IMG/VR virus record: IMGVR_UViG_3300045912_000943
Location: 1 to 38,673 of that record
Strand: one strand, 5' to 3'
Length of the DNA: 38,673 nucleotides
Source: a virus
The number at the start of each line of letters is the position of its first letter. Position 1 is the first letter of the stretch. A program made the translations under genes and the position numbers. Positions 2,925-35,803 of the stretch are shown one piece after another. Below the pieces are notes generated by a model that was not told the DNA's origin, made no database searches, and saw only the letters and a list, made by a program, of their open reading frames with translations.

Positions 2925-3128
2925 TCAGTTGCGGGGCTCGGCGGGCGGCGCGGGGCAGAGTTCGGGCTCGCCGAGCGAGACCGTGACGGTGATGCGGAGG
3001 GTCACCGGCGTGGGCGTGGGCGGCGCGGGCGGCAGCAGCGCGTCGAGCAGCTCGCGCGGAATCGGCGGCCGGCGGGGCGGGCGGGCGACCATGCGGGCCA
3101 CCCTGCCGCGCGGGCACGCAACGATCAA
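2925..3128 (-). CDS. Small hypothetical protein co-transcribed with the repressor
   Basis: A 67-residue leftward frame starts at TTG (3128-3126), overlapping the repressor TGA as TTGA. This is the same coupling style (ATGA/GTGA) used through the rest of the phage. An AAGGAGAGG ribosome site (3145-3137 on the minus strand) stands 8 nt before the TTG, which supports this start over an in-frame ATG at 3092. Codon third positions are almost all G/C. The product is Pro/Arg-rich with a beta-like TLRITVTVSLGEPEL near the C-terminus and no recognisable domain. It is probably expressed with the repressor in the lysogen. Confidence 0.58.
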   Translation of the reverse strand: MIVACPRGRVARMVARPPRRPPIPRELLDALLPPAPPTPTPVTLRITVTVSLGEPELCPAPPAEPRN

Positions 3129-3601
3129 GGGTTGCGCCTCTCCTTATTCTCATCGTCCTGCGATTGCAGGATCGCGCGCGCGCCATCGTAGAGCGCGAGC
3201 GTCAGGGCGAGCAGTTTGCGCGCCTCCGGCCGCGCAACGCCGCGCTGGACGAAGGCGTTGAGCGCGGCCTCGTAGCTGGTGGCGAGGTCGTCGAGATCGA
3301 GCACGTCCTGGGCGCGCGGCGGCTCGGCGGGCGGCGCGGGCGAGTCGCCGGGGCGCATCGGCCCCGCGCCGGTGGCGAGCCACTCCAGGCAGACCCCGGC
3401 CGCGCGCGCCAGCGCCGCCGCGTTCGACAGCTTCATCTCGCCGCCCTTCAGATAGCCGTCGAGGGTGGTCTTGGGGATGCCCGTGCGCGTCGAGATCGCC
3501 GTTTTGCCGCCGGCGAGCCGCACGACCTCACGGACGCGCTCCGCACGGCCCTGCGTGCCGACTGACGATATTTCGTACTTCTCTTCAGTCAGATCAGACA
3601 T
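3125..3601 (-). CDS. Helix-turn-helix repressor (Mu c-like)
   Basis: This 158-residue leftward protein has an XRE-type helix-turn-helix at residues ~19-76 (RVREVVRLAGGKTAISTRTG, then IPKTTLDGYLKGG, and a SNAAALARAAGVCLEWLATG tail typical of phage repressors). A Pro-rich linker and a C-terminal helical part (residues ~98-150) probably mediate oligomerisation. It is the first leftward gene from the divergent control region facing ner, the standard place for the lysogeny repressor in Mu-like phages. It should silence the early operon and, by analogy, antagonise transposase at the left end. The ATG at 3601 is directly followed by MSDLTEEKYE. A LexA-like protease domain is not present. Confidence 0.85.
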   Translation of the reverse strand: MSDLTEEKYEISSVGTQGRAERVREVVRLAGGKTAISTRTGIPKTTLDGYLKGGEMKLSNAAALARAAGVCLEWLATGAGPMRPGDSPAPPAEPPRAQDVLDLDDLATSYEAALNAFVQRGVARPEARKLLALTLALYDGARAILQSQDDENKERRNP

Positions 3602-5146: not shown

Positions 5147-5778
5147 TGCGCCCGCGCCACGTCCGCGCGCTGCTGCGCCGGCTCGACGCGCTGGCCGCGC
5201 GCGCCGCCCATCCGCTGTTCGTGCTGCACGGCCCGGGCGATCCGGGGGGTCCGCGGGAGACCCCGGCCCACCAAGGCGACCTGCCGGCGCCGCCGGTCAA
5301 TGCCCGCCCGGGGGCCGCGTCGGACGACGCGGCTGCGTACAGGGCCAAGGCCGCCGATCCCGCGCCCCCGCTATCCCTCCAAGAGGGAAAGCGGGGCGAG
5401 GACCCTCACCCTGACCCTCTCCCGCGCGCGGGAGAGGGGACGCCGCCGGCGCCGCCGCCACCCTCACCCCGGCCCTTTCCCGCGCCCGCCCGCCCGCCGG
5501 CGGTGCGGGTGCCCGAGCCCTCGGTGGCGGCGCGCGAGGACCGCGAGCGCGCGGCTGAGATGCTCTTCGCCCGGGCCGATTACGCGACCATCACCGCGTG
5601 GGGCCGCGCCAGCGGGGTGGACGTGTCCGGCCGGGGCCGCAGCGGCGTCGTGATCATGCGGGTCAACGCGAAGCGGCGGTCGTTCGGGCTGCCGGCGTTC
5701 CGGCTGGTCAACTCGCCGCGGCCGGCCGAGGCGGTCACGGCCGAGTTCCACGAGATGTCCCGGGTGCGCACCGCATGA
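5146..5778 (+). CDS. Hypothetical early protein carrying REP-like insertions
   Basis: The 210-residue product has three parts: a basic N-terminus (residues 1-30, MRPRHVRALLRRLDALAARA), a low-complexity Pro/Ala middle (~35-125), and a conserved-looking C-terminal part (~128-205, from SVAAREDRERAAEMLFARAD to FRLVNS). The middle is largely made of palindromic REP-like DNA (hairpins 5366-5396 and 5415-5438, plus a related half copy from 5461) that happens to stay in frame and yields PHPDPLPRAGEG. The functional core is probably the C-terminal part. No family was recognised. It overlaps its neighbours by TGATG and ATGA. Confidence 0.6.
   Translation: MRPRHVRALLRRLDALAARAAHPLFVLHGPGDPGGPRETPAHQGDLPAPPVNARPGAASDDAAAYRAKAADPAPPLSLQEGKRGEDPHPDPLPRAGEGTPPAPPPPSPRPFPAPARPPAVRVPEPSVAAREDRERAAEMLFARADYATITAWGRASGVDVSGRGRSGVVIMRVNAKRRSFGLPAFRLVNSPRPAEAVTAEFHEMSRVRTA
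5366..5438. repeat. REP-like palindromic element inside a coding gene
   Basis: Two hairpins lie in tandem: CCCCGCTATCCCTC with GAGGGAAAGCGGGG (5366-5396, one mismatch, 3-nt loop) and a perfect 24-bp palindrome with arms CCCTCTCCC and GGGAGAGGG (5415-5438). A related CCCTCACCCCGGCCCTTTCC half-copy starts at 5461. The same unit recurs at 9723-9759 in the GcrA-like gene. This layout is typical of dispersed extragenic palindromes of GC-rich proteobacteria. Confidence 0.7.
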
Positions 5779-12998: not shown

Positions 12999-13373
12999 AT
13001 GACCCGGCCCGCCACCCTGCCGCCGCCGCCGGCGGAACTCGCGCACCTGGCCGCGCCGCTCGGCGCCGAGGCGCTGCTGGCGCTGATCGAGACGCATGGC
13101 GGGCGGCGGCTCTACGTGCCGTCGCGCTCCACCCCCGGGCTGCGCACGCTGCTCGGCGCCGGACCGGCCGCCGCGTTCTGCGCCGCCTTTCGCGGCGCGT
13201 ACGTCAAGGTGCCGCTCGCCCGAGCGTGGCGCGCGGCGATCTATCGCGGGCGGGGCAAATCCCAGGCCGAGATCGCGCGCGCGCTCGGCATGACCGAGGG
13301 CGCAGTCTGGCGGCTGCTGCGCGGCAGCGGTCAGCAGGACGCGGCCGCGCCGCCGCGCCTGCCGGGGCTCTGA
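12999..13373 (+). CDS. mor: Mor-type middle transcription activator
   Basis: The 124-residue product carries the Mor/C family pattern: an N-terminal dimerisation part, GGRRLYVPS (34-42) corresponding to the GGxxxYxP strand of Mor, an AFCAAFRGAYVK segment, and a C-terminal helix-turn-helix (residues ~87-107, KSQAEIARALGMTEGAVWRL). Mor of Mu (129 residues) activates the middle promoter; C activates late promoters. Only one such gene is seen here, so it may do both jobs. It lies at the early/late boundary. The start has no strong ribosome site, so ATG 12999 is the likely but not certain choice. Confidence 0.8.
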   Translation: MTRPATLPPPPAELAHLAAPLGAEALLALIETHGGRRLYVPSRSTPGLRTLLGAGPAAAFCAAFRGAYVKVPLARAWRAAIYRGRGKSQAEIARALGMTEGAVWRLLRGSGQQDAAAPPRLPGL

Positions 13374-13393
13374 CCCCTCGCTCTGACCCCTCG
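13368..13393 (+). repeat. Perfect 13-bp tandem repeat spanning the mor stop codon
   Basis: CTCTGACCCCTCG occurs at 13368-13380 and 13381-13393 with no gap. The first copy contains the mor TGA. The repeats end 7 bp before the promoter-like motif at 13401, so they could be an activator site or a simple slippage duplication. Confidence 0.65.
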
Positions 13394-13400
13394 CGACGGC

Positions 13401-13432
13401 GGGCATGAACAGCGCGCCCCCGCGCGCGCGAC
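13401..13432 (+). promoter_or_regulatory. Candidate late promoter before the lysis genes
   Basis: GGGCATGAACAGCG (13401-13414), 13 bp, then GCGAC (13428-13432). The same bipartite arrangement with identical spacing occurs at 20237-20268 before protease I. Mu has activator-dependent late promoters at both of these places (Plys and PI). The motif lies in the 85-bp gap between mor and the first lysis-region gene. Repeat and spacing are seen; promoter function is inference. Confidence 0.6.
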
Positions 13433-13458
13433 ACTCCGCCCGCCACCAGGAGACCGCG

Positions 13459-13650
13459 ATGCGACTGATCCTGCTCTCCGCCCCGCTCGCGCTGAGCTTC
13501 TGCGCGGGGCTCGCCGACGAGCTGCTCGGCCCGGCGGAGCCCTGCGCCCGCGCCGAATGGGCCGCGCGCCAGGGCGACGCGGCCGCGTGGCAGCGCGCGC
13601 GGATGGCCTGCGACGCGCGCGGTGGCGCGGCCGGGAGCCGCGCGCGATGA
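13459..13650 (+). CDS. Small secreted/membrane protein of the lysis segment
   Basis: ATG 13459 follows a CCAGGAGA ribosome site and opens a 63-residue product with a hydrophobic leader, MRLILLSAPLALSFCAGLAD. LSFC resembles a lipobox but has Phe before Cys, so lipidation is doubtful. The mature part is short and charged with two Cys (CARAEWAARQGDAAAWQRAR, then MACDARGG). It lies right before the holin and could be a spanin or lysis accessory; that is inference from position. An in-frame ATG at 13405 was rejected because it would remove the leader and lacks a ribosome site. Confidence 0.6.
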   Translation: MRLILLSAPLALSFCAGLADELLGPAEPCARAEWAARQGDAAAWQRARMACDARGGAAGSRAR

Positions 13651-14000
13651 CCGAGCTGCTCGCCCCGCTCGCGCCGATGCTCGTCGAGCTCGCCGCCGCG
13701 CTGCTGCTGGCGCTGGCCTCGTTCGCTGCCGCCCGGCTCGCGACCTGGCTCAAGCTCTCGAACGATGCCGCGGTGCGCGGCTACCTGACCGAGGCGATCG
13801 AGCGGGCGGTCGACTGGGCGGAGGCGCGCATGGTGGCCTCGCTCGCCGGCCAGGCACCCACCGCCGCCGACTGGCGCCGCGCGGCCGAGGACGCGGCCGG
13901 CTACCTGTCCGAGCGCGTGCCCGACGCGCTGACGCATTTCGGCGTGACGCCGGAGGGCGTCCGGAAGCTGGTCGAGGCGCGGCTCGCGCCGCGGCGCTGA
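13647..14000 (+). CDS. Phage holin, LLH-like family
   Basis: The 117-residue product has one N-terminal transmembrane helix (residues ~8-32, LVELAAALLLALASFAAARL) followed by a conserved amphipathic part (VRGYLTEAIERAVDWAEARM) and a C-terminal helical region (DALTHFGVTPEGVRKLVEAR). This pattern fits the LLH (phage_holin_6) family of lysis pore proteins, which are frequent in Mu-like phages of alphaproteobacteria. ATG 13647 overlaps the preceding stop (ATGA). An endolysin is not found next to it. Confidence 0.78.
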   Translation: MTELLAPLAPMLVELAAALLLALASFAAARLATWLKLSNDAAVRGYLTEAIERAVDWAEARMVASLAGQAPTAADWRRAAEDAAGYLSERVPDALTHFGVTPEGVRKLVEARLAPRR

Positions 14001-14002
14001 CC

Positions 14003-14338
14003 ATGGAGGTCACCTGGGTCACCCTGGCGGCCGGGATCCTGACCGCGGCGACGCTGGCGGGCGGCCTGGTGATGGCCTGGATCCGCTGGCAGCTCTCGGC
14101 CGATTTCGCGCGCACGGCCGACGTGTCGGCGCTCGGCGTGCGGATCGGCGCGGTCGAGGACAGGCTGAAGGCGATGCCCGAGCACGCCGATTTGGAAAGC
14201 CTCAACCTGCGGCTCGGCCGCGTCGAGCGCAACGTCGACGTGGTCGCCGCCGAGCTGCGCGGCGTGCGCGAGTCGATCGCCCGCGTCGAGCGCGACCTGC
14301 ACCTGCTGATCAAGCACCACCTGGGGCCCCCTCAGTGA
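14003..14338 (+). CDS. DUF2730 family protein (Mu gp25-like)
   Basis: The 111-residue product has a short N-terminal transmembrane helix (residues ~5-27) and then a long coiled coil (ALGVRIGAVEDRLKAMPEHA, LNLRLGRVERNVDVVAAEL, RESIARVERDLHLLIKHHL). The MPEHADLESLNLRLGRVE block is typical of the DUF2730 family, which sits between the lysis genes and gp26 in Mu. The function is unknown; a membrane-linked scaffold for lysis or packaging is possible. The start is 2 bp after the holin stop. Confidence 0.85.
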   Translation: MEVTWVTLAAGILTAATLAGGLVMAWIRWQLSADFARTADVSALGVRIGAVEDRLKAMPEHADLESLNLRLGRVERNVDVVAAELRGVRESIARVERDLHLLIKHHLGPPQ

Positions 14339-14348
14339 CGAGGCCAGC

Positions 14349-14654
14349 GTGAGCTTCGCCGAGACGCTCGCCCAGGACCGCCGCCGCGCGGTGCTGCTGC
14401 TGCTCAGCACGGCCGACGGGTTCGCGCTGAACGAGGACGTGCTCGCGCGCGAGCTCGCGCGCATCCGCCTCGGCGTGGTCACGCGCGACGAGCTGCGCGG
14501 GCTGCTCGCCTGGCTGGAGCGGCAGGGGCTGGTGTCGATCGAGCGGCTGACGGCGCCGGCGGTCGAGGGCGAGCTCTGGGCCGCGGCCGCGACCCGCGCC
14601 GGCCGCGACGTCGCGCGTGGCGCGAGCCATCCCGGCGTCGCCGCGCCGCTCTGA
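14349..14654 (+). CDS. Mu gp26-like winged-helix phage protein
   Basis: A GTG at 14349 gives a 101-residue winged-helix protein: SFAETLAQDRRRAVLLLLST, GFALNEDVLARELARIRL, RDELRGLLAWLERQGLVSIE, and a GRDVARGASHPGV ending. This is the family that follows DUF2730 in Mu-like phages. Its role in the late operon is not established. It overlaps the next gene by TGATG. Confidence 0.82.
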   Translation: MSFAETLAQDRRRAVLLLLSTADGFALNEDVLARELARIRLGVVTRDELRGLLAWLERQGLVSIERLTAPAVEGELWAAAATRAGRDVARGASHPGVAAPL

Positions 14655-15229
14655 TGCCGCGGCCGAGCACGATCGACCGGCTGGACCGCGCGCTCCGCGA
14701 GGAGATCGGCCGGCTGCGCGAGGCCGGCCGCACGCTCGACGAGATCCTCGCCGCCCTGCGCACGCTCGACCCGGAGGCGGGGATCAGCCGCTCGGCGCTC
14801 GGGCGGCACGTGCAGCGGCTCGACCGGCTCGGCCAGCGGCTGAAGCAGAGCCGCATGCTGGCCGAGGGGCTGGCGCGCCAGCTCGGCGAGGCGCCCGGCG
14901 ACCAGGTCGCGCGGGTGAACATCGAGCTCCTGCACTCGTTCCTGTCCGAGACCCTCGCCGCGGCCGAGGACGACGAGAGCGCCACGGGTCAGGAGACCCG
15001 CGCGCATCTGCGCAACCCGAAGGGCGCGGCGCTGTTCGCCGAGGCGGTGGAGCGGCTCACCAAGGCGTCGCGCCACAACGCCGAGTTCGTCGAGCGGATC
15101 GAGCGCCGCGCCGCCGATCGGGCGAAGCGCGATGCCGCCAGCGCGGCCGAGACGGCCGGCCGCCAGGCCGGGCTGACCGCGCCGACGATCGCGGCGATCA
15201 AGGCGCAGATCCTCGGCGTGCGGGCATGA
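14654..15229 (+). CDS. DUF3486 family protein (Mu gp27-like, putative small terminase)
   Basis: The 191-residue product begins MPRPSTIDRLDRALREEI and has an N-terminal helix-turn-helix (residues ~8-55, TLDEILAALRTLDPEAGISR, SALGRHVQRLDRLG) and a long helical C-terminus. The DUF3486 family lies directly before the large terminase in Mu-like phages and is thought to be the small, DNA-recognising subunit of the packaging motor. It is coupled to both neighbours (TGATG, ATGA). Confidence 0.88.
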   Translation: MPRPSTIDRLDRALREEIGRLREAGRTLDEILAALRTLDPEAGISRSALGRHVQRLDRLGQRLKQSRMLAEGLARQLGEAPGDQVARVNIELLHSFLSETLAAAEDDESATGQETRAHLRNPKGAALFAEAVERLTKASRHNAEFVERIERRAADRAKRDAASAAETAGRQAGLTAPTIAAIKAQILGVRA

Positions 15230-16821
15230 CGCCCGGCCCCGATCCCGGCCCCGATCTCGGCGTGCTGCTGCCCTACCAGCGGCGGCTGCTGGAGACGATC
15301 GCGGCCCACGAGGTCACGGTCTACGAGAAGTCGCGCCGGATCGGCGCGACCTGGGGCGTGGCGGCGCAGGCGGTGCTGTTCTCGGGCGCGGCGCGCGCCG
15401 AGCGCGGCATGGACACGCTCTACATCGGCTATAACCTCGACATGGCGCGCGAGTTCGTCGACGTCGCCGCCATGTGGGCGAAGTCGCTCGGCCTCGCCGC
15501 CTCGGCCGCCGGCGAGTTCCTGTTCCCCGACCAGGACGCGGCGGGCGGGGCGCGGCAGATCCAGGCCTTCCGGATCAGCTTCGCCTCCGGCTTCGAGATC
15601 GTGGCGCTGGCCTCGCGCCCGCGCAGCCTGCGCGGCCGGCAGGGCTTCGTGGTGATCGACGAGGCGGCGTTCCACGACGATCTGCCGTCGCTGCTGAAGG
15701 CCGCGCTCGCGCTGCTGATCTGGGGCGGCAAGGTGCTGGTGATCTCGACGCATGACGGCGCCGAGAACCCGTTCGCCGAGCTGGTCAACGACTGCCGCGC
15801 CGGCCGGCTGCCCTACGCGCTGCTGCGCACCACCTTCGACGAGGCGCTGGCCGACGGGCTCTACCGGCGGATCTGCCTGGTCAAGCGCGAGATCTGGTCG
15901 GCCGAGGCCGAGGCCGCCTGGGCCGCGCGCATCCGCGCGATCTACGGCGCGGGCGCGGCCGAGGAGCTGGACGTGATCCCGCGCGCGGGCTCGGCGCGGT
16001 TCCTGCCGCTGCACCTGATCGAGGCGCGCGCCGACCGCGCGATCCCGGTGCTGCGCTGGGCCTGCGACGACGCCTTCGTCCACCTGCCCGAGGCGGCGCG
16101 CGAGCACGCGGCAGCCGCGTGGTGCCACGAGGCGCTGCTGCCGCTGGTGCGCGGCCTCGACCCCGACCTGCGCACGGCCCTCGGCGGGGACATCGCCCGC
16201 TCGGGCGATCTCACCGTGTTCTTCCCGCTGGTGGTCGGCGCAGACCTGGTGCGGCGCTGTCCGTTCAGCGTCGAGCTGCGCAACGTGCCGTTCGAGCAGC
16301 AGCGCCAGATCCTCTGGTGGCTGCTCGACCGGCTGAGCCGGCTCTCCGGGGTCGCGCTCGACGCCACCGGCCTCGGCGCGATGCTCGCGGAAGTCACGAT
16401 GCAGCGCTACGGCGCCTGGCGGGTCGAGCCGGTGGTGCTGTCCGAGGCCTGGTACCGCGCGCACATGCCCAGGCTGCGCGCCGCGTTCGAGGACGGCGGG
16501 ATCGTCATCCCGGCGGACGCCGCGGTCGTGGACGATTTCCGCGCGATCGAGGTGGTGCGCGGCGTCGCGCGCGTGCCCGATCGGCGCCCGGCCGCGCGCG
16601 GCGAGGACAAGGACAAGGCGCGCGGCCAGCGCCACGGCGACGCGGCGATCGCGGCGGCCCTGGCGCTCTACGCCGCGAGCCGCGAGAGCGCCGGCGCCGA
16701 GGCGGCGGGGCTTCCCCTCGCCGGCCCGCCCGAGGCGCTCGCCGACTTCCTCGGCGCGCGCGGCCGCGGCCCCGAGCGCGCCGCGCCCGTGCCGGCCGGG
16801 TTCATCGGAGGCGGATGGTGA
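15226..16821 (+). CDS. Large terminase subunit (Mu gp28-like)
   Basis: The 531-residue product has an ATPase domain with a Walker-A-like EKSRRIGATWG (residues 34-44), Walker B FVVIDEAAF (141-149) and motif III LVISTHDG (171-178). A C-terminal RNase H-like nuclease follows, with Asp residues D322 (GGDIARSGD), D379 (ALDATGLG) and D472 (RHGDAAIA). The motor cuts and pumps phage DNA into proheads, for Mu by headful packaging with host flanks attached. The length is close to Mu gp28 (551). It overlaps the portal gene. Confidence 0.94.
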   Translation: MTPGPDPGPDLGVLLPYQRRLLETIAAHEVTVYEKSRRIGATWGVAAQAVLFSGAARAERGMDTLYIGYNLDMAREFVDVAAMWAKSLGLAASAAGEFLFPDQDAAGGARQIQAFRISFASGFEIVALASRPRSLRGRQGFVVIDEAAFHDDLPSLLKAALALLIWGGKVLVISTHDGAENPFAELVNDCRAGRLPYALLRTTFDEALADGLYRRICLVKREIWSAEAEAAWAARIRAIYGAGAAEELDVIPRAGSARFLPLHLIEARADRAIPVLRWACDDAFVHLPEAAREHAAAAWCHEALLPLVRGLDPDLRTALGGDIARSGDLTVFFPLVVGADLVRRCPFSVELRNVPFEQQRQILWWLLDRLSRLSGVALDATGLGAMLAEVTMQRYGAWRVEPVVLSEAWYRAHMPRLRAAFEDGGIVIPADAAVVDDFRAIEVVRGVARVPDRRPAARGEDKDKARGQRHGDAAIAAALALYAASRESAGAEAAGLPLAGPPEALADFLGARGRGPERAAPVPAGFIGGGW

Positions 16822-18302
16822 CCAGGGTTCCAGCCACGCTCGCCGGCGAGATCGCCGGCCTCGCGCGCGACGTCACCGCGCCGATCACCGGCTTCACCCT
16901 CTCGCCGCGCGACGAGATCCTGCTGCGCCGTGCCGGCGGCCAGGGGATCCGGCTCTACCAGGACCTGGCGCGCGACGGCCACGCCGGCGCCGTCTTGCGC
17001 AAGCGGCGCCAGGCCGTCGTTGCGCGCGAGTGGACGGTCGAGCCGGCCGCGGACGCGCCGGCGGACGAGCGCGCCGCCGCGCTGGTGCGCGCCGCCCTGG
17101 CGCGCATCCGCTTCGACCGGGCCTCGGCCGGGCTGCTCGCCGCGGTGCTGACCGGCTACGCGGTCGCCGAGGTGCTCTGGGAGGCGGCGGAGCTCGAGCT
17201 CGACGACGGCACGCGCGGCAGCTTCATCGTTCCGGCCGACATCCGGGTGCGCAACGCGCGCCGGTTCGTGCTCGACCGCGACGGGCGGCTCAGGCTGCTC
17301 ACCTGGGAGGCGCCGCTCGACGGCATCGCGCTGCCGGAGCGGAAGTTCCTGCTGGTCCGGTACTGGGCCGAGGAGAACGAGGACCCCTACGGCCGCGGGC
17401 TCGGCCACGACCTGTTCTGGCCGATCTACTTCAAGCGCAATGCGCTGGCGCTGTGGTCGGCGCTGGCCGAGAAGTTCGGCCAGCCGTTCGTCTATGCCGA
17501 GTACCCGGCCGGCACCACCGAGCGCGACCGCCAGATCCTGCTGGGCGCGGTGCAGGAGCTGGCGCGCGGCGGCGGTCTGGTGGTGCCGCAGGGCACGCTG
17601 GTGAAGTTCCTGGAGGCCGGCGCCGGCACCGGCGGCAGCCGGCTGCACGCCGAGCTGGTCCAGGCCATGGATGACGAGATCAGCAAGATCGTGCTGGGCG
17701 AGACGCTGTCCACCGAGATGGGCGCGGTCGGCGCGCGGGCGGCCTCCGAGACCCACGAGGGGGTGCGCCAGGAGCTCGCCGACGCCGACGCCGACTGGCT
17801 CTCCGCCGAGCTGAACACCTCGCTGCTCGCCTGGATCACCGAGATCAACCTGCCCGGCGCGCGGCCGCCCGCGGTGTGGCGCCGGGCGCCGGACGCGACC
17901 GACCTGGAGCAGCGCACCAGGATCGACGAGGCGCTGTTCCGCATCGGCTACGTGCCGGAGGAGGGCTACGTCGCCGAGACCTACGGCCCGGGCTACCGCC
18001 GGCTCGCCCCGGCCGCGCCGCCGGTGCCGCCCGGCCCGGCCTTCGCCGAGGGGCCCGAGGACCCGGTGGCGGCGCTCACCGCCCGGCTCGCCGGGGACGC
18101 CGCGGCCGCGCAGGCGCTGCTGCTGGACGCGGTGCGCGCCGAGACCGAGGCGGCGCAGAGCCTGCCCGAGCTGGAGCAGCGGCTCGCCCGGCTGGCCGGC
18201 GCGCTTCCCGTGCGCGCGCTCGCCGAGAAACTCGGGCCGGCCTTCGCGCTGGCCTATCTCGCCGGGGCTGACCAGGCGGACGGCGAGACGCGCGACCCGT
18301 GA
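16815..18302 (+). CDS. Portal protein, DUF935 family (Mu gp29-like)
   Basis: The 495-residue product matches the DUF935 portal family: SPRDEILLRRAGGQGIRLYQ, KRRQAVVAREWTVEPA, YGRGLGHDLFWPIYFKRNAL, EKFGQPFVYAEYP and ISKIVLGETLSTEMGAVGAR. The portal forms the 12-fold ring through which DNA enters and to which the tail attaches. ATG 16815 lies inside the terminase stop region (7-bp overlap). The C-terminal ~100 residues are Ala/Pro-rich and probably form the extended barrel. The length is close to Mu gp29 (512). Confidence 0.93.
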   Translation: MVTRVPATLAGEIAGLARDVTAPITGFTLSPRDEILLRRAGGQGIRLYQDLARDGHAGAVLRKRRQAVVAREWTVEPAADAPADERAAALVRAALARIRFDRASAGLLAAVLTGYAVAEVLWEAAELELDDGTRGSFIVPADIRVRNARRFVLDRDGRLRLLTWEAPLDGIALPERKFLLVRYWAEENEDPYGRGLGHDLFWPIYFKRNALALWSALAEKFGQPFVYAEYPAGTTERDRQILLGAVQELARGGGLVVPQGTLVKFLEAGAGTGGSRLHAELVQAMDDEISKIVLGETLSTEMGAVGARAASETHEGVRQELADADADWLSAELNTSLLAWITEINLPGARPPAVWRRAPDATDLEQRTRIDEALFRIGYVPEEGYVAETYGPGYRRLAPAAPPVPPGPAFAEGPEDPVAALTARLAGDAAAAQALLLDAVRAETEAAQSLPELEQRLARLAGALPVRALAEKLGPAFALAYLAGADQADGETRDP

Positions 18303-19474
18303 CGATCGAGGCGCTGTCGCTGCCGCCCCGCGAGGCGATCGCGTTCCTGCTCCAGAAGGGCTCGGTCGGCACGCGGCGCTGGGACGACGTCTGGAAGGCG
18401 GGACACACCCGCGCCTTCATGGTGGCCGGCGTGCAGGCGGGCGACCTGCTGGAGGGCGTGCGGCGCGCGGTGCAGCGCGGGATCGCCGAGGGCACCACGC
18501 TCGCCGCGTTCCGCGCCGACCTCCAGCCGCTGCTGGAGCGGCTCGGCTGGGCCGCGCGGGGCGAGGGCTATGTCGGCTGGCGCACGCGGCTGGTGTACGA
18601 GACCAACCTGCGCTCGGCCTATGCCGCCGGCGACTACGAGCAGCGCACCGAGCCCGAGGTGCTGGAGGCGTTCCCGTACTGGCGCTACCGGCACTCCGGC
18701 GCGCGCGATCCGCGGCCCGAGCACAAGGCCTGGGACGGGCTGGTGCTGCGCGCCGACGATCCGTGGTGGCAGACCCACCACCCGCCGAACGGGTGGGGCT
18801 GCGGCTGCTGGGTCGAGCCGCTGACCGCGGCCGAGCTCGGCCGGCTCGGCAAGCCAGGGCCGGACAGCGCGCCGCCGATCGTGACGCGGGTCTGGACCGA
18901 CCGGGCCTCGGGCCGCACCGAGCGCGTTCCCGTCGGGATCGACCCGGGCTGGGACTACAACGTCGGCGCGGCCTGGCGTCAGGTGCGCGACCTGCCGCCC
19001 GGCACGCTGCCGCCGGACTGGCCGCCGCCCGCGCCGGCCCACGCCGCGATCGTGCCGCGCCAGCCGGCGCCGCCGCCGGCCCCGCCCCCGGCCGATGTCT
19101 GGCGCTTCGTGAGCGAGCCCTCTGGCGAGATCCCGGTCGGCACGGTGCCGTCGGCGGTCGCGCGCGCGCTCGGCGCCGCGACGCGCGAGGTGCGGTTCTC
19201 GGCTGAGAGCGCACAAAAGAACCGGCTTCATCACCCCGAACTGACCGAGCAGGACTACGCGCGGCTCGTCCAGGTGGTCGCGCGGCCGGCGGTGATGCTC
19301 GCGCAGGACGAGCGTCGCGTGCTGCTGCTGCGCAGCTTCGGCGTGCTGTACGTCGCCGCGGTCAAGGCCACGTCCGACCGGGGCGCGCTCTACCTGCTGA
19401 GCTTCCGCCGCGCGCGCGAGAAGGACGAGCGCCGGCTGACCCGGCGGTTCCCGGAGCTCGATCGTGAGGAGTGA
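18299..19474 (+). CDS. F: Mu F-like minor head protein with C-terminal PBECR-type nuclease domain
   Basis: The 391-residue product has an N-terminal Mu F/SPP1 gp7-like head-morphogenesis domain (residues ~20-240). This includes WRTRLVYETNLRSAYAAGDY, the SGARDPRPEHKAWDGLVL block and the HHPPNGWGCGCWVEPL motif. A Pro/Ala linker (242-266) leads to a C-terminal domain (~296-380) containing SAESAQKNRLHHPELTEQDY and LYLLSFRRAREKD. That pattern resembles phage Barnase/EndoU/ColicinE5/RelE-like (PBECR) nuclease domains known on such head proteins. If so, the nuclease could be injected with the DNA. F assignment is firm; the nuclease call is from motif memory. GTG start, overlapping the portal (GTGA). 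Confidence 0.88.
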   Translation: MTIEALSLPPREAIAFLLQKGSVGTRRWDDVWKAGHTRAFMVAGVQAGDLLEGVRRAVQRGIAEGTTLAAFRADLQPLLERLGWAARGEGYVGWRTRLVYETNLRSAYAAGDYEQRTEPEVLEAFPYWRYRHSGARDPRPEHKAWDGLVLRADDPWWQTHHPPNGWGCGCWVEPLTAAELGRLGKPGPDSAPPIVTRVWTDRASGRTERVPVGIDPGWDYNVGAAWRQVRDLPPGTLPPDWPPPAPAHAAIVPRQPAPPPAPPPADVWRFVSEPSGEIPVGTVPSAVARALGAATREVRFSAESAQKNRLHHPELTEQDYARLVQVVARPAVMLAQDERRVLLLRSFGVLYVAAVKATSDRGALYLLSFRRAREKDERRLTRRFPELDREE

Positions 19475-19609
19475 AGCGGCGCGCTGGTGGGGCCTCCCGG
19501 GAACCCCACATCGCGAACCCGCCCGCAGGCGGTCCTACGGCAGGGAGAATGGCACCGTGTCGCAGCGCGCCAGGGGAGAGTATAGGCGTGTCATGGCGGG
19601 CGATCCAGC
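19475..19609. other. 135-bp untranslated gap in the late operon with hairpins
   Basis: In an otherwise overlapping operon this gap holds a stem GTGGGG/CCCCAC (19487-19492 with 19504-19509, 11-nt loop) and a short CGCC/GGCG hairpin near 19515-19530. No convincing gene, ribosome site or tRNA was found. It may be a structured RNA segment, a processing site or the remnant of a lost small gene. Confidence 0.4.
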
Positions 19610-20053
19610 ATGAGCGGCGTCACGCTGACGGTCCGCCAGCAGGCGGTGCAGGCGGCGCTGGCGCGGCTGGCCGGCGCGGCGCAGGACCCGGCGCCGGCGC
19701 TGCGCAGCCTCGGCGTGCTGCTGGTGCGGAACACGCGCAACCGGATCGTCGCCGAGGGGCCGGCGCCCGACGGCACCGCCTGGCCCCGGCTCGCGGCGGC
19801 CACGCGCAAGAGGAAGCGCGGGCCGGGCATGCTGCGCGAGCGGGCGATGCGCGGCGGGCTCATGGCCTCGCTCACGTCGCAGGTGGACGGGCGGCGGCTG
19901 CGCGTGGGCACGAACAAGATCTACGCCGCGACCCACCAGTTCGGCCGCGACGCGATCCCGGCGCGCGCGTTCCTCGGCATCTCCGAGGAGGATCAGCGCG
20001 ACATCGTCGAGGTGCTCGCCGACCACATGCGGCGCGCCCTCGCGCGGCGCTGA
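19610..20053 (+). CDS. G: Phage virion morphogenesis protein (Mu gpG-like)
   Basis: The 147-residue product matches the phage virion morphogenesis (gpG/tail completion) family: LVRNTRNRIVAEGPAPDGTA, WPRLAAATRKRKRG, LMASLTSQVDGRRLRVGTNK, and the conserved YAATHQFGRDAIPARAFLGI ending. In Mu, gpG acts in late head/tail assembly. It follows the F-like gene after a 135-bp gap and precedes the 225-bp region leading to protease I. Confidence 0.92.
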   Translation: MSGVTLTVRQQAVQAALARLAGAAQDPAPALRSLGVLLVRNTRNRIVAEGPAPDGTAWPRLAAATRKRKRGPGMLRERAMRGGLMASLTSQVDGRRLRVGTNKIYAATHQFGRDAIPARAFLGISEEDQRDIVEVLADHMRRALARR

Positions 20054-20278
20054 CCGCGCCCGCTCTCAGAGCACCCGAATAAGAGCCCAAAGAGCACACT
20101 AAGAGCGGCCTCCGAGGTCCGGGGGGTGTCTCGGGTGCGGCGCGCGCCAGACCCCGCTCCACGGGCTTCCCAGGCCGTTCTTCGCGCGCGCCCGACCCCG
20201 CGGTTTTCGGGCCCGTCTGTTCTCGGCCGCGTCTGGGGGCATGAACAGCGGCCGCGCGCGCGTGCGACGGTCGCCGCG
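20054..20278 (+). promoter_or_regulatory. Region between G and protease I, with AGAGC repeats
   Basis: This 225-bp gap holds AGAGC four times (20068, 20082, 20091, 20102) in an AT-richer patch, preceded by an inverted GCTCT-C-AGAGC at 20062-20072, possibly a terminator for the upstream transcript. The bipartite late-promoter candidate lies at 20237-20268. I see no gene in the gap; frames crossing it lack ribosome sites. Confidence 0.45.
20237..20268 (+). promoter_or_regulatory. Candidate late promoter before protease I
   Basis: GGGCATGAACAGCG (20237-20250), 13 bp, then GCGAC (20264-20268), identical in sequence and spacing to the element at 13401-13432. It ends 10 bp before the protease start. 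In Mu the PI late promoter lies upstream of gene I. The repeat is seen; promoter activity is inference. Confidence 0.6.
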
Positions 20279-21340
20279 ATGCAGAGGCTGCACATCTTCC
20301 GCGCCGGCACGCACCGGCCGATGGACGGCGGGACGATCGCGTTCGCGAGCGCCGACATCGCCGCGATCGCGCGCGCCTACGACCCCGCCAAGCACGAGGC
20401 GCCGATCGTGATCGGCCACCCGCGCACGAGCTCGCCCGCCTATGGCTGGATCGGTGCGCTGGCCGCCGAGGGCGACGACCTCTACGCCACGCCGCGGCAG
20501 GTCGAGCCCGCCTTCGCCGAGATGGTGCGGGCCGGGCGGTACAAGAAGATCTCGGCGCGGTTCTACGGCCCGACGCATCCCGCCAACCCCGCGCCCGGCG
20601 TCTACTACCTCGACCATGTCGGCTTCCTCGGCGGCGCCGCCCCGGCGGTGAAGGGGCTGCGGGAGGTCGAGTTCGCCGCCGACGACGCGGAGACCGTCAC
20701 GGTCGAGTTCGCCGCCCCCGAGCGCGGCACGCTCGCCGGCGTGCTCGGCGAGCTCGGCGCGCTGCTCGCCGGGCTGCGCGACCGGCTGGCCGGCGCCGAG
20801 CCGTCCCCATCCTTCGCCGATCCGCCCGCCCCGACGACCACCCCCCCACCCGAGAGGAGTCCCGCCGTGGACGATGCCGCCCGCGCGGCCGAACTCCAGC
20901 AGCAGCTGGAGGCCGCGAATGCCCGCCTCGCGCAGTTCGCCGAGGCGGAGGACCGCCGCCGGCGCGAGGCCAACCGAGACTTCGTCGAGCAGGTCGTGCG
21001 CGAGGCGCGGCTGCCCGCCGGGCTCGCGCCGCGCGCCACCGCGCTGCTCGACGCGCTCGACGCCGAGGCCACGGTCAGCTTCGCCGAGGGCGAGAGGACC
21101 CTGAGCGAGAGCCCGCGCGCGGCGTTCCAGGCGCTGCTGCGCGCCCTGCCGCCGCGCGTGGCGCTCGGCGAGGTCAACCCGCCCGGGCCGGAGAGCGGCG
21201 ACACCGTCGCCTTCGCCGAGGTGCCCGGCACCCAGGTCGATCCGGAGCGGCTGGCGCTGCACAACCGGGTGGTCGCGTACCAGCGCGCGCACCCCGGCAC
21301 CGACTACATGACCGCGCTGCGCGCGGTCGGCGTGAGCTGA
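20279..21340 (+). CDS. I: Prohead protease with fused scaffold (Mu gpI-like)
   Basis: The 353-residue product begins MQRLHIFRAGTHRPMDGGTI and has a Mu I-type serine protease domain (residues ~1-150: APIVIGHPRTSSPAYGWIGA, AGRYKKISARFYGP, YYLDHVGFLGGAAPAVKGL). A Pro/Thr linker (~180-196) and a scaffold domain (~197-353) with a coiled coil (ARAAELQQQLEAANARLAQF) follow. The protease matures the prohead and removes the scaffold; the H-P-R-T-S-S segment and S-A-R-F-Y segment are the likely catalytic neighbourhood. ATG 20279 is used because earlier in-frame starts read through the upstream gap and promoter motif. Confidence 0.9.
   Translation: MQRLHIFRAGTHRPMDGGTIAFASADIAAIARAYDPAKHEAPIVIGHPRTSSPAYGWIGALAAEGDDLYATPRQVEPAFAEMVRAGRYKKISARFYGPTHPANPAPGVYYLDHVGFLGGAAPAVKGLREVEFAADDAETVTVEFAAPERGTLAGVLGELGALLAGLRDRLAGAEPSPSFADPPAPTTTPPPERSPAVDDAARAAELQQQLEAANARLAQFAEAEDRRRREANRDFVEQVVREARLPAGLAPRATALLDALDAEATVSFAEGERTLSESPRAAFQALLRALPPRVALGEVNPPGPESGDTVAFAEVPGTQVDPERLALHNRVVAYQRAHPGTDYMTALRAVGVS
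20867..21340 (+). CDS. Z: Internal in-frame scaffold protein (Mu Z-like)
   Basis: Inside gene I an AGAGGAGT ribosome site (20853-20860) stands 6 nt before an in-frame GTG at 20867, which would give a 157-residue protein from VDDAARAAELQQQ to the shared stop. Mu expresses its scaffold Z from exactly such a nested start. The product is a coiled coil followed by DFVEQVVREARLPAGLAPRA and the LHNRVVAYQRAHPGTDYMTA C-terminus, which probably binds the capsid. The start is inferred from the ribosome site and analogy. Confidence 0.65.
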   Translation: MDDAARAAELQQQLEAANARLAQFAEAEDRRRREANRDFVEQVVREARLPAGLAPRATALLDALDAEATVSFAEGERTLSESPRAAFQALLRALPPRVALGEVNPPGPESGDTVAFAEVPGTQVDPERLALHNRVVAYQRAHPGTDYMTALRAVGVS

Positions 21341-30457: not shown

Positions 30458-30984
30458 GCCCGGGCGAGATCGCCCGGCTTCTCGACCCGGTGCGCCGGCG
30501 CGTGCTGCTCGCGATCGGCCGCGCGCTGCTGCGCGGCGTGGACGACGCGGGCGGGCTCCAGCGCATGCAGGTCTCGCTGCTCGGCCCCGAGACGCGCGAC
30601 GCGGTCGAGCGCGTGCAGCCCTACGGCCTCAGCTCGGTGCCTCTCGCCGGCGCGGAGGCGGTGGTGGTCTGCGTCGCGGGCAACCGCGACCACCCGGTCG
30701 TGGTCGCCTGCGACGATCCGCGGCTCAGGCCCACGGGGCTGCGGCCCGGCGAGGTCTGCGTCTACGGCGCCCGCGGCCAGCGGCTCCTGATGACCGCCGA
30801 CGGCACGATCGAGGTCGAGGCGGAGCGCGTGACGATCCGCCCCTCGGACCGGGTGCGGATCGAGGGGCTGCTCGAAGTGACCGGCGACGTGACCGCGGGC
30901 GGGATCAGCGTGCAGACCCACGTGCACACGGGCGTCGAGCCCGGCAGCGGCACCTCCGGGCCGCCGGCGGGGAGCGCGCCATGA
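30454..30984 (+). CDS. Baseplate spike protein (Mu gp45/gpV-like)
   Basis: The 176-residue product has an OB-fold-like N-terminal part (LQRMQVSLLGPETRDAVERV, QPYGLSSVPLAGAEAVVVCV) and a C-terminal beta-helix spike (YGARGQRLLMTADGTIEVEA) that ends with the HVHTG motif and a SGPP tail. Gp45 and P2 gpV use such an H-x-H tip to bind iron at the membrane-piercing end. GTG start at 30454, overlapping the hub stop (GTGA). Confidence 0.92.
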   Translation: MSPGEIARLLDPVRRRVLLAIGRALLRGVDDAGGLQRMQVSLLGPETRDAVERVQPYGLSSVPLAGAEAVVVCVAGNRDHPVVVACDDPRLRPTGLRPGEVCVYGARGQRLLMTADGTIEVEAERVTIRPSDRVRIEGLLEVTGDVTAGGISVQTHVHTGVEPGSGTSGPPAGSAP

Positions 30985-31406
30985 TCGGCCTCGCCTGGGA
31001 CCCGCGCCGCGGCGAGGCCGCGCTCCGCCGCACCGCCACCGGCGCGCTCGCGCAGGACGACGGGCTCGCCACGGCGGTGCTGCTGTCGCTGTTCCTCGAC
31101 CGTCGCGCCGGGCCGGACGATCCGCTGCCGGACGGCACGGACCGGCGCGGCTGGCTCGGCGACGCGCTCGCGGAAGACGCCGACCGGATCGGCTCTCGGC
31201 TGTGGCTCCTGAGCCGCGAGAAGCAGGTCGAGGAGACCCGCCGCCGCGCCGAGGAGTATGCCGAGGAGGCACTCGCCTGGCTGGTCGAGGACGGGCTCGC
31301 CGAGTCGGTCGCGGTCAGCGCCGCGTGGGCGGGCATCGGCTGGCTCGACCTGCGCGTGACGATCACGCCCGGGCTGATCGAGACCTACCCGCTGAGGCTC
31401 GGCTGA
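30981..31406 (+). CDS. Baseplate wedge protein GP46 family
   Basis: The 141-residue product matches the GP46 family: MIGLAWDPRRGEAALRR, LSLFLDRRAGPDDPLPDGTD, RRGWLGDALAEDADRIGSRL, WLLSREKQ, and ALAWLVEDGLAESVAVSAAW. It is the gp25-like wedge that connects to the sheath. ATG 30981 overlaps gp45 (ATGA) and the stop overlaps gp47 (TGATG). Confidence 0.92.
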   Translation: MIGLAWDPRRGEAALRRTATGALAQDDGLATAVLLSLFLDRRAGPDDPLPDGTDRRGWLGDALAEDADRIGSRLWLLSREKQVEETRRRAEEYAEEALAWLVEDGLAESVAVSAAWAGIGWLDLRVTITPGLIETYPLRLG

Positions 31407-34769: not shown

Positions 34770-35803
34770 GCCTGCGCCACCATCCGCCCGCCGGGTCCGG
34801 CACACGAATCACGAGCCAGTGGAACGAGCCCAGCGCGCACGTCGTCGACGGTCCGGGCATCCTGCTGCGCACCGCGGCGGGCACAGGACCGCTCGAGCTC
34901 GTCGGCCTCTCCTCCGACTTCGCGGTCGAAGCGAACGAACTGCGGGTCGTGGCTGCGACGGGGCCGCAGGGTCCGCAAGGCGAGCCGGGGCCGCAGGGTC
35001 CGCAAGGCGAGCCGGGGCCGCAGGGTCCGCAAGGCGAGCCGGGGCCGCAGGGTCCGCAAGGCGAGCCGGGGCCGCAGGGTCCGCAAGGCGAGCCGGGCGG
35101 CGGCACCGAGGGCTACGCCTCGCAGCGCACGATCACGGCCAGCGGCACCATCACCGACGCTGACCGCAACGGCGTGGTCTACATCAACGGCTCCGGGATC
35201 ACCGCCACCTTCGTCCGCTCTGGGTTCTCGGCGCGTGACCGGGTGCTGCTGATCAACATCGGGACGGCGGCGGCGACGATCAGCGCCGGAACCGACGGGT
35301 TCAACTCGGCTGGCAACGACAGCTTCACCCTCTTCCCCGGCGAGGAGCGGGAGGTCGTCTACGAGGGCTCGGCCGACCCGTACTGGCGCGTCGCCGTGCC
35401 GGGCACGATCGAGCTCGCCGCCAATCAGGTTGCGACGCTCAACAACGCCGGCACCGGGTTCGAGGCGCGCACGGAGAAGGTGGTCGGCTCCGTCTTCCTG
35501 CCGATCACCGGCAACGTCTCGGGCGGCGCGGCGGAAGGCCAGATCGGCCTGTGGGGCAACCTGCCCTGCACGCTCACCGCGGTGCGCGCACGCACGCTCG
35601 GCGGGACGTGCTCGATCCAGATCCGCAAGAACGGCTCGGCGATCAACGGCTTTTCGAGCGCGGTCGCGCAGACGACATCAGTCACCGGCACGGCGAGCAC
35701 CGAAGCGTTCGCTCAGGACAATCTGCTCGATGTCGTGGTGACGAGCGCATCCAGCCTGACCGGCCTGTTCATCACCTTCCTCGGTGTAAGGACGGCCGAC
35801 TGA
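34766..35803 (+). CDS. Collagen-like tail fibre protein
   Basis: The 345-residue product has an N-terminal part (residues 1-65), a collagen-like block of five identical GPQGPQGEP units (66-110), and a C-terminal beta part (~115-345). The latter starts [20 protein letters not shown] and ends in a jelly-roll-like region ([20 protein letters not shown] onward). Collagen repeats trimerise and stiffen phage fibres, with the C-terminal domain binding the receptor. ATG 34766 overlaps the preceding stop (ATGA). From about 35100 onwards base composition drifts to lower GC. Confidence 0.82.
34961..35095 (+). repeat. Five perfect 27-bp tandem repeats encoding collagen units
   Basis: The 27-bp unit, starting GGGCCGCAGGGTCCGCAA, is repeated five times with no substitutions seen, each coding GPQGPQGEP. 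Perfect conservation at synonymous positions points to recent expansion by slippage or recombination, so copy number probably varies between relatives. Confidence 0.92.

Follow-up and report, generated by a model that had tools for sequence, protein, structure and literature searches.

What drives the late genes of a phage in which one and the same short sequence precedes both the lysis segment and the protease gene? The question is raised by the bipartite element GGGCATGAACAGCG-N13-GCGAC in the complete virus record IMGVR_UViG_3300045912_000943 (38,673 nt, 75% G+C), the whole of which is referred to here as the window. An earlier note had placed the element at 13401-13432 (site 1, before the lysis segment) and 20237-20268 (site 2, before the protease gene) with identical spacing, had noticed no third copy by eye, and had proposed that both are activator-dependent late promoters at the positions of Plys and PI of phage Mu. 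Scanning of the whole window, right end included, returned exactly these two exact copies on the plus strand and no third one on either strand with up to 3 mismatches (0.02 expected). The promoter proposal is also the best-supported reading, as relatives keep dyads at the same two places: judged from sequence, each copy would belong, with a probability of about 0.86, to the activator-type late promoters of the Mor/C class known from Mu.

The paired element and its putative activator

The likeness of the two sites extends beyond the element itself. In an ungapped alignment of 13389-13435 with 20225-20271, 34 of the 47 positions are identical; elsewhere the window shares at most 23 of these 34. 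The common block starts ~9 bp upstream of the element as first described (CGCGnCnGnGGGCATG...) and ends at the T of the predicted −10 box (13435/20271). Exact repeats of at least 13 nt number in the hundreds in the window, and the repeat shared by sites 1 and 2 has a G+C content far below that of the other long ones; the best segment common to both gaps scored 23.4, versus 14.4 at most in 300 Markov shuffles. The GCGAC part leads into the hexamers GACACT (site 1) and GACGGT (site 2), 29 bp after GGGC. Site 1 lies 28 nt downstream of the activator gene and site 2 lies 42 nt upstream of the protease ATG.

These features fit the following scheme. A dimer of the sole Mor-like protein of the phage would bind a 16-bp dyad, of which GGGCATGAAC would be the promoter-proximal half, and the bound activator would stand in for the missing −35 box and recruit the RNA polymerase of the host to a −10 box that is weak and lies 31 to 33 bp from the dyad center, across a spacer that is G+C-rich and often CG-alternating. 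Site 1 would thus give rise, from about 13442, to an RNA for the lysis and packaging genes that carries a Shine-Dalgarno sequence, and site 2, from the A of the ATG at about 20278/20279, to a leaderless mRNA for the protease and head genes.

Only one Mor/C homologue was found in the window, and 11 of 20 aligned homologues of it match Pfam Mor (PF08765). Searched against structures, its profile matched Mu Mor (1rr7, 8.6e-5) and, weakly, Mu C (9l0x). Several observations weigh against the promoter reading. The window protein itself stays below the Pfam Mor model, which its relatives alone reach. Both window elements have a perfect right half and a degenerate left half, with 3 of 5 outer pairs retained, and the −10 boxes keep A2 and T6 and little else, so that the hexamers are weak. 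A sigma-70 scan found no match at site 1 or site 2, and the dyad pairing described below failed in 7 of 28 phages, in part via uncertain start assignment.

The missing sigma-70 match also bears on whether the sites are ordinary or alternative host sigma promoters that need no phage activator, with TGAACA-18-GACACT as degenerate −35 and −10 boxes. TGAACA has 4 of 6 letters of the −35 box, and an 18-bp spacer is allowed. However, mor lies directly upstream, and the −35 region is alike within a phage and unlike between phages of related hosts (0.77 versus 0.43). Because a host sigma factor cannot explain a match within phages together with a difference between them, we regard such promoters as very unlikely.

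Another proposal, that the conservation reflects a translation start (ATG AAC AGC, peptide MNS...) and not DNA control, draws on the presence of ATGAACAGC in both copies and on the ATG of site 1, which is in frame with the lysis open reading frame (ORF). The ATG of site 2 (20241), by contrast, does not share the frame of the protease (20279), and relatives show ATTAAC, GTGAAC, or no ATG at this place, which leaves this the least probable of the explanations considered.

Three further candidates were rejected. GGGCATGA at 15222, considered as a further site, lies at the end of the small terminase gene, has no −10 signature, and is attributed to chance. GGGCATGAAC was also considered as the −10 box itself (CATGAA); in relatives it is a dyad half-site, with a −10-like hexamer 29 bp on. 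The CG-alternating spacer is enriched at Plys (6/16 versus 2.5%) yet is not diagnostic in the window, since 7.6% of its 26-nt stretches have one.

Dyads and promoter geometry in related phages

Relatives of the protease were drawn from viral contigs and bacterial genomes. Those of the activator came from the order to which a Roseomonas relative belongs, where 46 of 395 genomes matched, with the downstream DNA included; a Mor protein search of genome contigs and a tblastn search with Mor against the phage collection gave no match. The most similar activator found (55% identical to that of the window) is encoded by the relative L312, which carries perfect dyads with the half-site of the window both after mor (GTCATGCCC...GGGGCATGAC) and before the protease (GCCCAC-GCCT-GTGGGCATGAC). 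In the relative L239, at 46 to 49% identity, mor is followed by the dyad CGGGCATGACC, the protease-type ORF is preceded by CGGGCGTGAACC, and CGGGCGTGAACCG accompanies a third ORF. From the dyads of these two relatives, GGGCATGAAC is to be read as the promoter-proximal half-site of the activator dyad, with a distal half that is degenerate in the window. Other groups use other letters: Roseomonas phages have one dyad, ATGCGGAC-GCAT-GTCCGCAT, at both places, and Bordetella-type phages likewise have GGTGAA..TTCACC.

The pairing was examined blindly in 28 Mor-encoding Mu-like phages, using the 24-bp dyad region after mor alone as the query. Success required that the top match over the following 12 kb lie within 3 nt of the same offset from an ATG that opens an ORF of at least 200 codons. 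In 21 of the 28 phages the rank-1 match fell at the start of a gene-I-type (protease) ORF, ~7 to 9 kb on, versus a chance rate of 1.9% at random positions (P about 5e-31); the phages are partly close relatives, and 16 of the 21 successes are non-redundant. Two of the ORFs were checked, and both match the Pfam Mu-like prophage I protein (protease). The pair is present, at deposited gene starts, in the cultured phages YPCBV-1, RcapMu, RcWaterboi, Bhz63, and RR1-B, and by eye in B3 (TTTTCGAACTGCCGAAAAGC, TTTTCGGTCCGCCGAAAAGC). A best shared-segment test failed in six Roseovarius-type phages (L153, L155, L163, L173, L201, and L267), in which the gap between activator and lysis genes is short.

Within a phage the dyads agree at 77% of positions, versus 43% between phages, a contrast that is small or absent in the flank, spacer, and −10 region. 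A dyad that is alike within phages and unlike between them is expected of a phage-encoded activator, and it is to such a protein that the phage-specific dyads point. Exact matches to the 14-mer GGGCATGAACAGCG were sought in 2.9 million viral contigs, and more than 100 contigs were among the matches listed. In the 156 loci checked, it precedes the protease only in a contig 99% identical to the window, and in two further protease-bearing contigs it lies inside coding sequence; matches outside the near-identical contig are attributed to chance or to coding sequence. Since the 14-mer is confined in this way, its exact letters appear specific to the window phage, with a design common to relatives. 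The suggestion that the element defines the late-promoter class of a whole phage group thus holds for the architecture and fails for a fixed sequence, as the dyad differs from phage to phage.

This architecture is evident when sites are aligned on the start codon. At 24 non-redundant sites after mor, dyad symmetry is centered at −44.5/−45.5 (z about 6 versus swapped arms; 0/2000), and A-N3-T occurs at −11 in 14 and at −12 in 6 (20/24), with 4 at most at any other position. In a sample of 60 non-redundant starts of protease genes, drawn from phages of alpha-, beta-, and gammaproteobacteria, A-N3-T lies at −12 in 23 and at −11 in 18 (41/60; next-best position, 9), and the symmetry peaks at −43.5 (z 4.7). 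At both window sites and in most relatives, A-N3-T is 31 to 33 bp from the dyad center. The binding element of Mor in Mu spans 16 bp and contains two 5-bp inverted repeats centered at −43.5 (PMC4390567). With the A of the ATG taken to be near +1, the geometry is a nearly exact match to that of Mu Pm.

A phage-specific dyad at several sites of one phage would also fit repressor operators or the sites of another phage DNA-binding protein. Against this stands the distance from the dyad to the −10 box, which equals that of Mor activation in Mu (−43.5) and places the dyad upstream of the box, not over it. In addition, −35 boxes are absent, and the sites lie at late-operon starts and adjoin mor, as in Mu. 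We therefore consider operators highly improbable, and retain activator-type promoters as the preferred reading.

Eight relatives with enough sequence could be examined for a third copy (L344 is too short). Seven have one, 18 to 24 of 24 positions identical to the first, and L312 does not. Its offset from the ATG is 0 or ±1 in 6 of the 7, and it precedes a tail-region ORF of 149 to 164 codons, ~11 to 12 kb after the second copy (L359-L366; L239 contig 31965). The homologous ORF of the window has no promoter element before it. Late genes of the B3-like phage Fc02 are expressed as three clusters (PMC9936078), and the third copy in relatives parallels both these transcript clusters and the Plys, PI, and PP promoters of Mu.

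Leaderless-looking protease starts and inverted repeats

If the −10 box fixes +1, the mRNA for the protease would begin at its own ATG, and we consider it probable that the transcript from site 2 is leaderless. The protease start at this site has no Shine-Dalgarno sequence, and site 1 is followed by AGGAG and a predicted 17-nt leader. In the sample of 60, 41 independent protease promoters look leaderless, and a Shine-Dalgarno-like motif is found at 3 of these 41 starts, versus 12 of the 19 remaining protease starts and 138 of 215 further genes of the same phages. In the Acetobacteraceae, leaderless mRNAs that begin with ATG have been described for Gluconobacter (PMC5756330); for leaderless late transcripts of Mu-like phages, our literature search found no paper. 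In B3 the deposited protease start is a CTG (L353:9450; NC_006548.1:19857) upstream of the rule-predicted ATG, falling after the dyad and ahead of the predicted −10 box, and in JBD67 it is a TTG (L356:9920), again upstream of the predicted ATG. Both are likely misannotated leaderless starts.

The protease starts have a second property. Stems of at least 5 bp adjoin them in 25 of the 60 relatives, compared with 7 among 215 control starts (P 3e-13), and stems of at least 6 bp in 19 versus 1; complementarity within a sequence exceeds that of swapped arms (z 6.8). In the leaderless layout the arms flank the −10 box (GCCGCC-GATCAT-GGCGGC-ATG). In the leadered layout of YPCBV-1 and L136, the Shine-Dalgarno sequence is in the right arm and the −10 box just before the left arm. 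Mu itself has a strong CTGCTCA...TGAGCAG hairpin just before gene I at PI (fold z −4.7; L350:655-698). The oligonucleotides of PMC4461284 were designed to extend 20 nt past the mapped start; transferred to the Mu record, they put the PI start ~25 nt upstream of the ATG, where the left arm has its distal end. In the window, the −10 hexamer of site 2 is the center of a small inverted repeat (GCGAC-G-GTCGC, 20264-20274), and at site 1 GGAG of the Shine-Dalgarno sequence is complemented, in read-through RNA only, by CTCC (13434-13437), which precedes the predicted start. RNA folds at the two window sites are not significant (z +0.7 and −1.1, the latter at site 1).

Shared hairpins could instead be transcription terminators of the preceding genes. 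Long perfect dyads followed by T-runs are present in RcapMu (L352:975-1000 and before L352:9468) and RR1-B (L358:2434-2470), the RcWaterboi dyad is also long and followed by T-runs, and terminators are predicted near both Mu sites. Neither window site, however, has a T-run or a terminator call. In most relatives the dyads are short and interrupted and are followed by CTGAA or CATGAAC, and a terminator would not need a fixed distance to the −10 box and the ATG. As a general explanation, terminators are therefore exceedingly unlikely, although in some phages (RcapMu, RR1-B) activator site and terminator may possibly be one element.

A late promoter within the 5′ arm of an RNA hairpin that conceals the start site is known from T4 genes e, soc, 49, and I-TevI, where only the promoter-initiated RNA escapes the hairpin (PMC3014915). 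In both layouts described here, promoter-initiated RNA would lack the left arm and read-through RNA would contain it, which is the logic of T4 gene e. It is tempting to assume that in Mu-like phages, Mu included, the gene-I promoter is nested in a start-adjoining inverted repeat as a class-wide switch that masks read-through RNA, an idea for which we judge the odds to be slightly below even. Read-through RNA would fold and hide the start codon or the Shine-Dalgarno sequence. RNA begun at the Mor/C-activated promoter would be without the 5′ arm and, in most of the group, leaderless. Synthesis of the protease and head proteins would then be licensed by the origin of the transcript, in a T4 gene e-like switch that evolved independently. 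Phage, activator, and genes differ from those of T4, and the leaderless form would mask a bare AUG, not a Shine-Dalgarno sequence. The conserved leaderless layout and the inverted repeat straddling the start go beyond what we found described.

Gene context and comparison with Mu

The window phage is a Mu-like phage of the B3/RcapMu type, with a transposase, a transposition protein, Gam, the late activator, terminase, portal, F and G homologues, and the protease. The features discussed are collected in Table 1; the first ORF of the lysis segment has no Pfam match. Elsewhere in the window, a late-region ORF contains a 27-bp unit in about five exact tandem copies (34959-35097), probably the collagen-like stretch of a tail gene. 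The early region holds a perfect 24-bp palindrome, CCCTCTCCCGCGCGCGGGAGAGGG (5415-5438), possibly a repressor operator. A divergent ORF (3125-3601, minus strand) has a weak, below-cutoff match to the CI-repressor helix-turn-helix PF07022 and is possibly the lysogeny repressor.

Table 1. Coordinates of promoter features and associated genes in the window
Feature	Position	Strand	Basis or remark
Gene for the Mor/C-like activator (124 aa) that presumably binds both elements	12999..13373	+	PHROG 836 'late transcriptional activator', E=9.5e-19
Site 1 (Plys-like), predicted 16-bp activator element CCTCGCGACGGCGGGC	13389..13404	+	Aligned on relatives' dyads; pairing counted from sequence
Site 1, conserved word GGGCATGAACAGCG (promoter-proximal half-site plus next bases)	13401..13414	+	Motif scan
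Site 1, predicted −10 hexamer GACACT, includes GAC of GCGAC	13430..13435	+	Inferred; offset equals relatives' A-N3-T
Site 1, predicted transcription start	~13442	+	From −10 position
AGGAG Shine-Dalgarno sequence of lysis-segment ORF	13448..13452	+	Sequence
First lysis-segment ORF, 63 aa, ATG 13459	13459..13650	+	ORF call
Site 2 (PI-like), predicted 16-bp activator element GGCCGCGTCTGGGGGC	20225..20240	+	Pairing counted from sequence
Site 2, conserved word GGGCATGAACAGCG	20237..20250	+	Motif scan
Site 2, predicted −10 hexamer GACGGT	20266..20271	+	Inferred from relatives' A-N3-T
Site 2, predicted transcription start	20278/20279	+	At the A of the protease ATG
Head maturation protease (gene I homologue)	20279..21340	+	PHROG 976, E=1.5e-93 on ORF from 20126
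Homologue of the ORF that follows the third copy in relatives	30981..31403	+	ATG overlaps preceding stop (ATGA)

With Mu Pm and Mor the proposed promoters share the activator family, a predicted 16-bp short-armed dyad, which lies at about −44 in relatives and is degenerate in the window, and a −10 box without a −35 box (PMC4390567, PMC4287176). In Mu, Mor serves Pm and C serves the late promoters, driving Plys, PI, PP, and Pmom (PMC4287176), whereas the one Mor-like protein of the window sits at the position of C and would act on the late promoters directly, at sites that are G+C-rich, unlike Mu Pm. The gene positions are those of Plys, PI, and PP, namely downstream of the activator gene and upstream of the gene I protease, with a third promoter in the tail region of relatives; the window phage differs from Mu in having no third copy at the expected ORF. 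The late sites of Mu are richer in A+T, and its genes 22 and I are preceded by leaders that contain Shine-Dalgarno sequences, while the protease promoters of the group mostly look leaderless. B3, JBD67, RcapMu, and Fc02, which are siphophages of the B3/RcapMu type, have the same gene order, and B3 (by eye) and RcapMu (by scan) each have a dyad of their own common to the lysis and protease promoters, although the dyad sequences differ.

A simple sequence rule, comprising a phage's own dyad at −44, a −10 box at −12, and the ATG at +1, thus locates candidate late promoters across otherwise dissimilar Mu-like phages, and it would correct gene starts such as those of B3 and JBD67. It also offers many natural pairs of activator and operator from which to read how Mor/C proteins pick their DNA. 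If the masking of read-through RNA holds true, the hairpin would be a timing device for head protein synthesis that is present in Mu itself.

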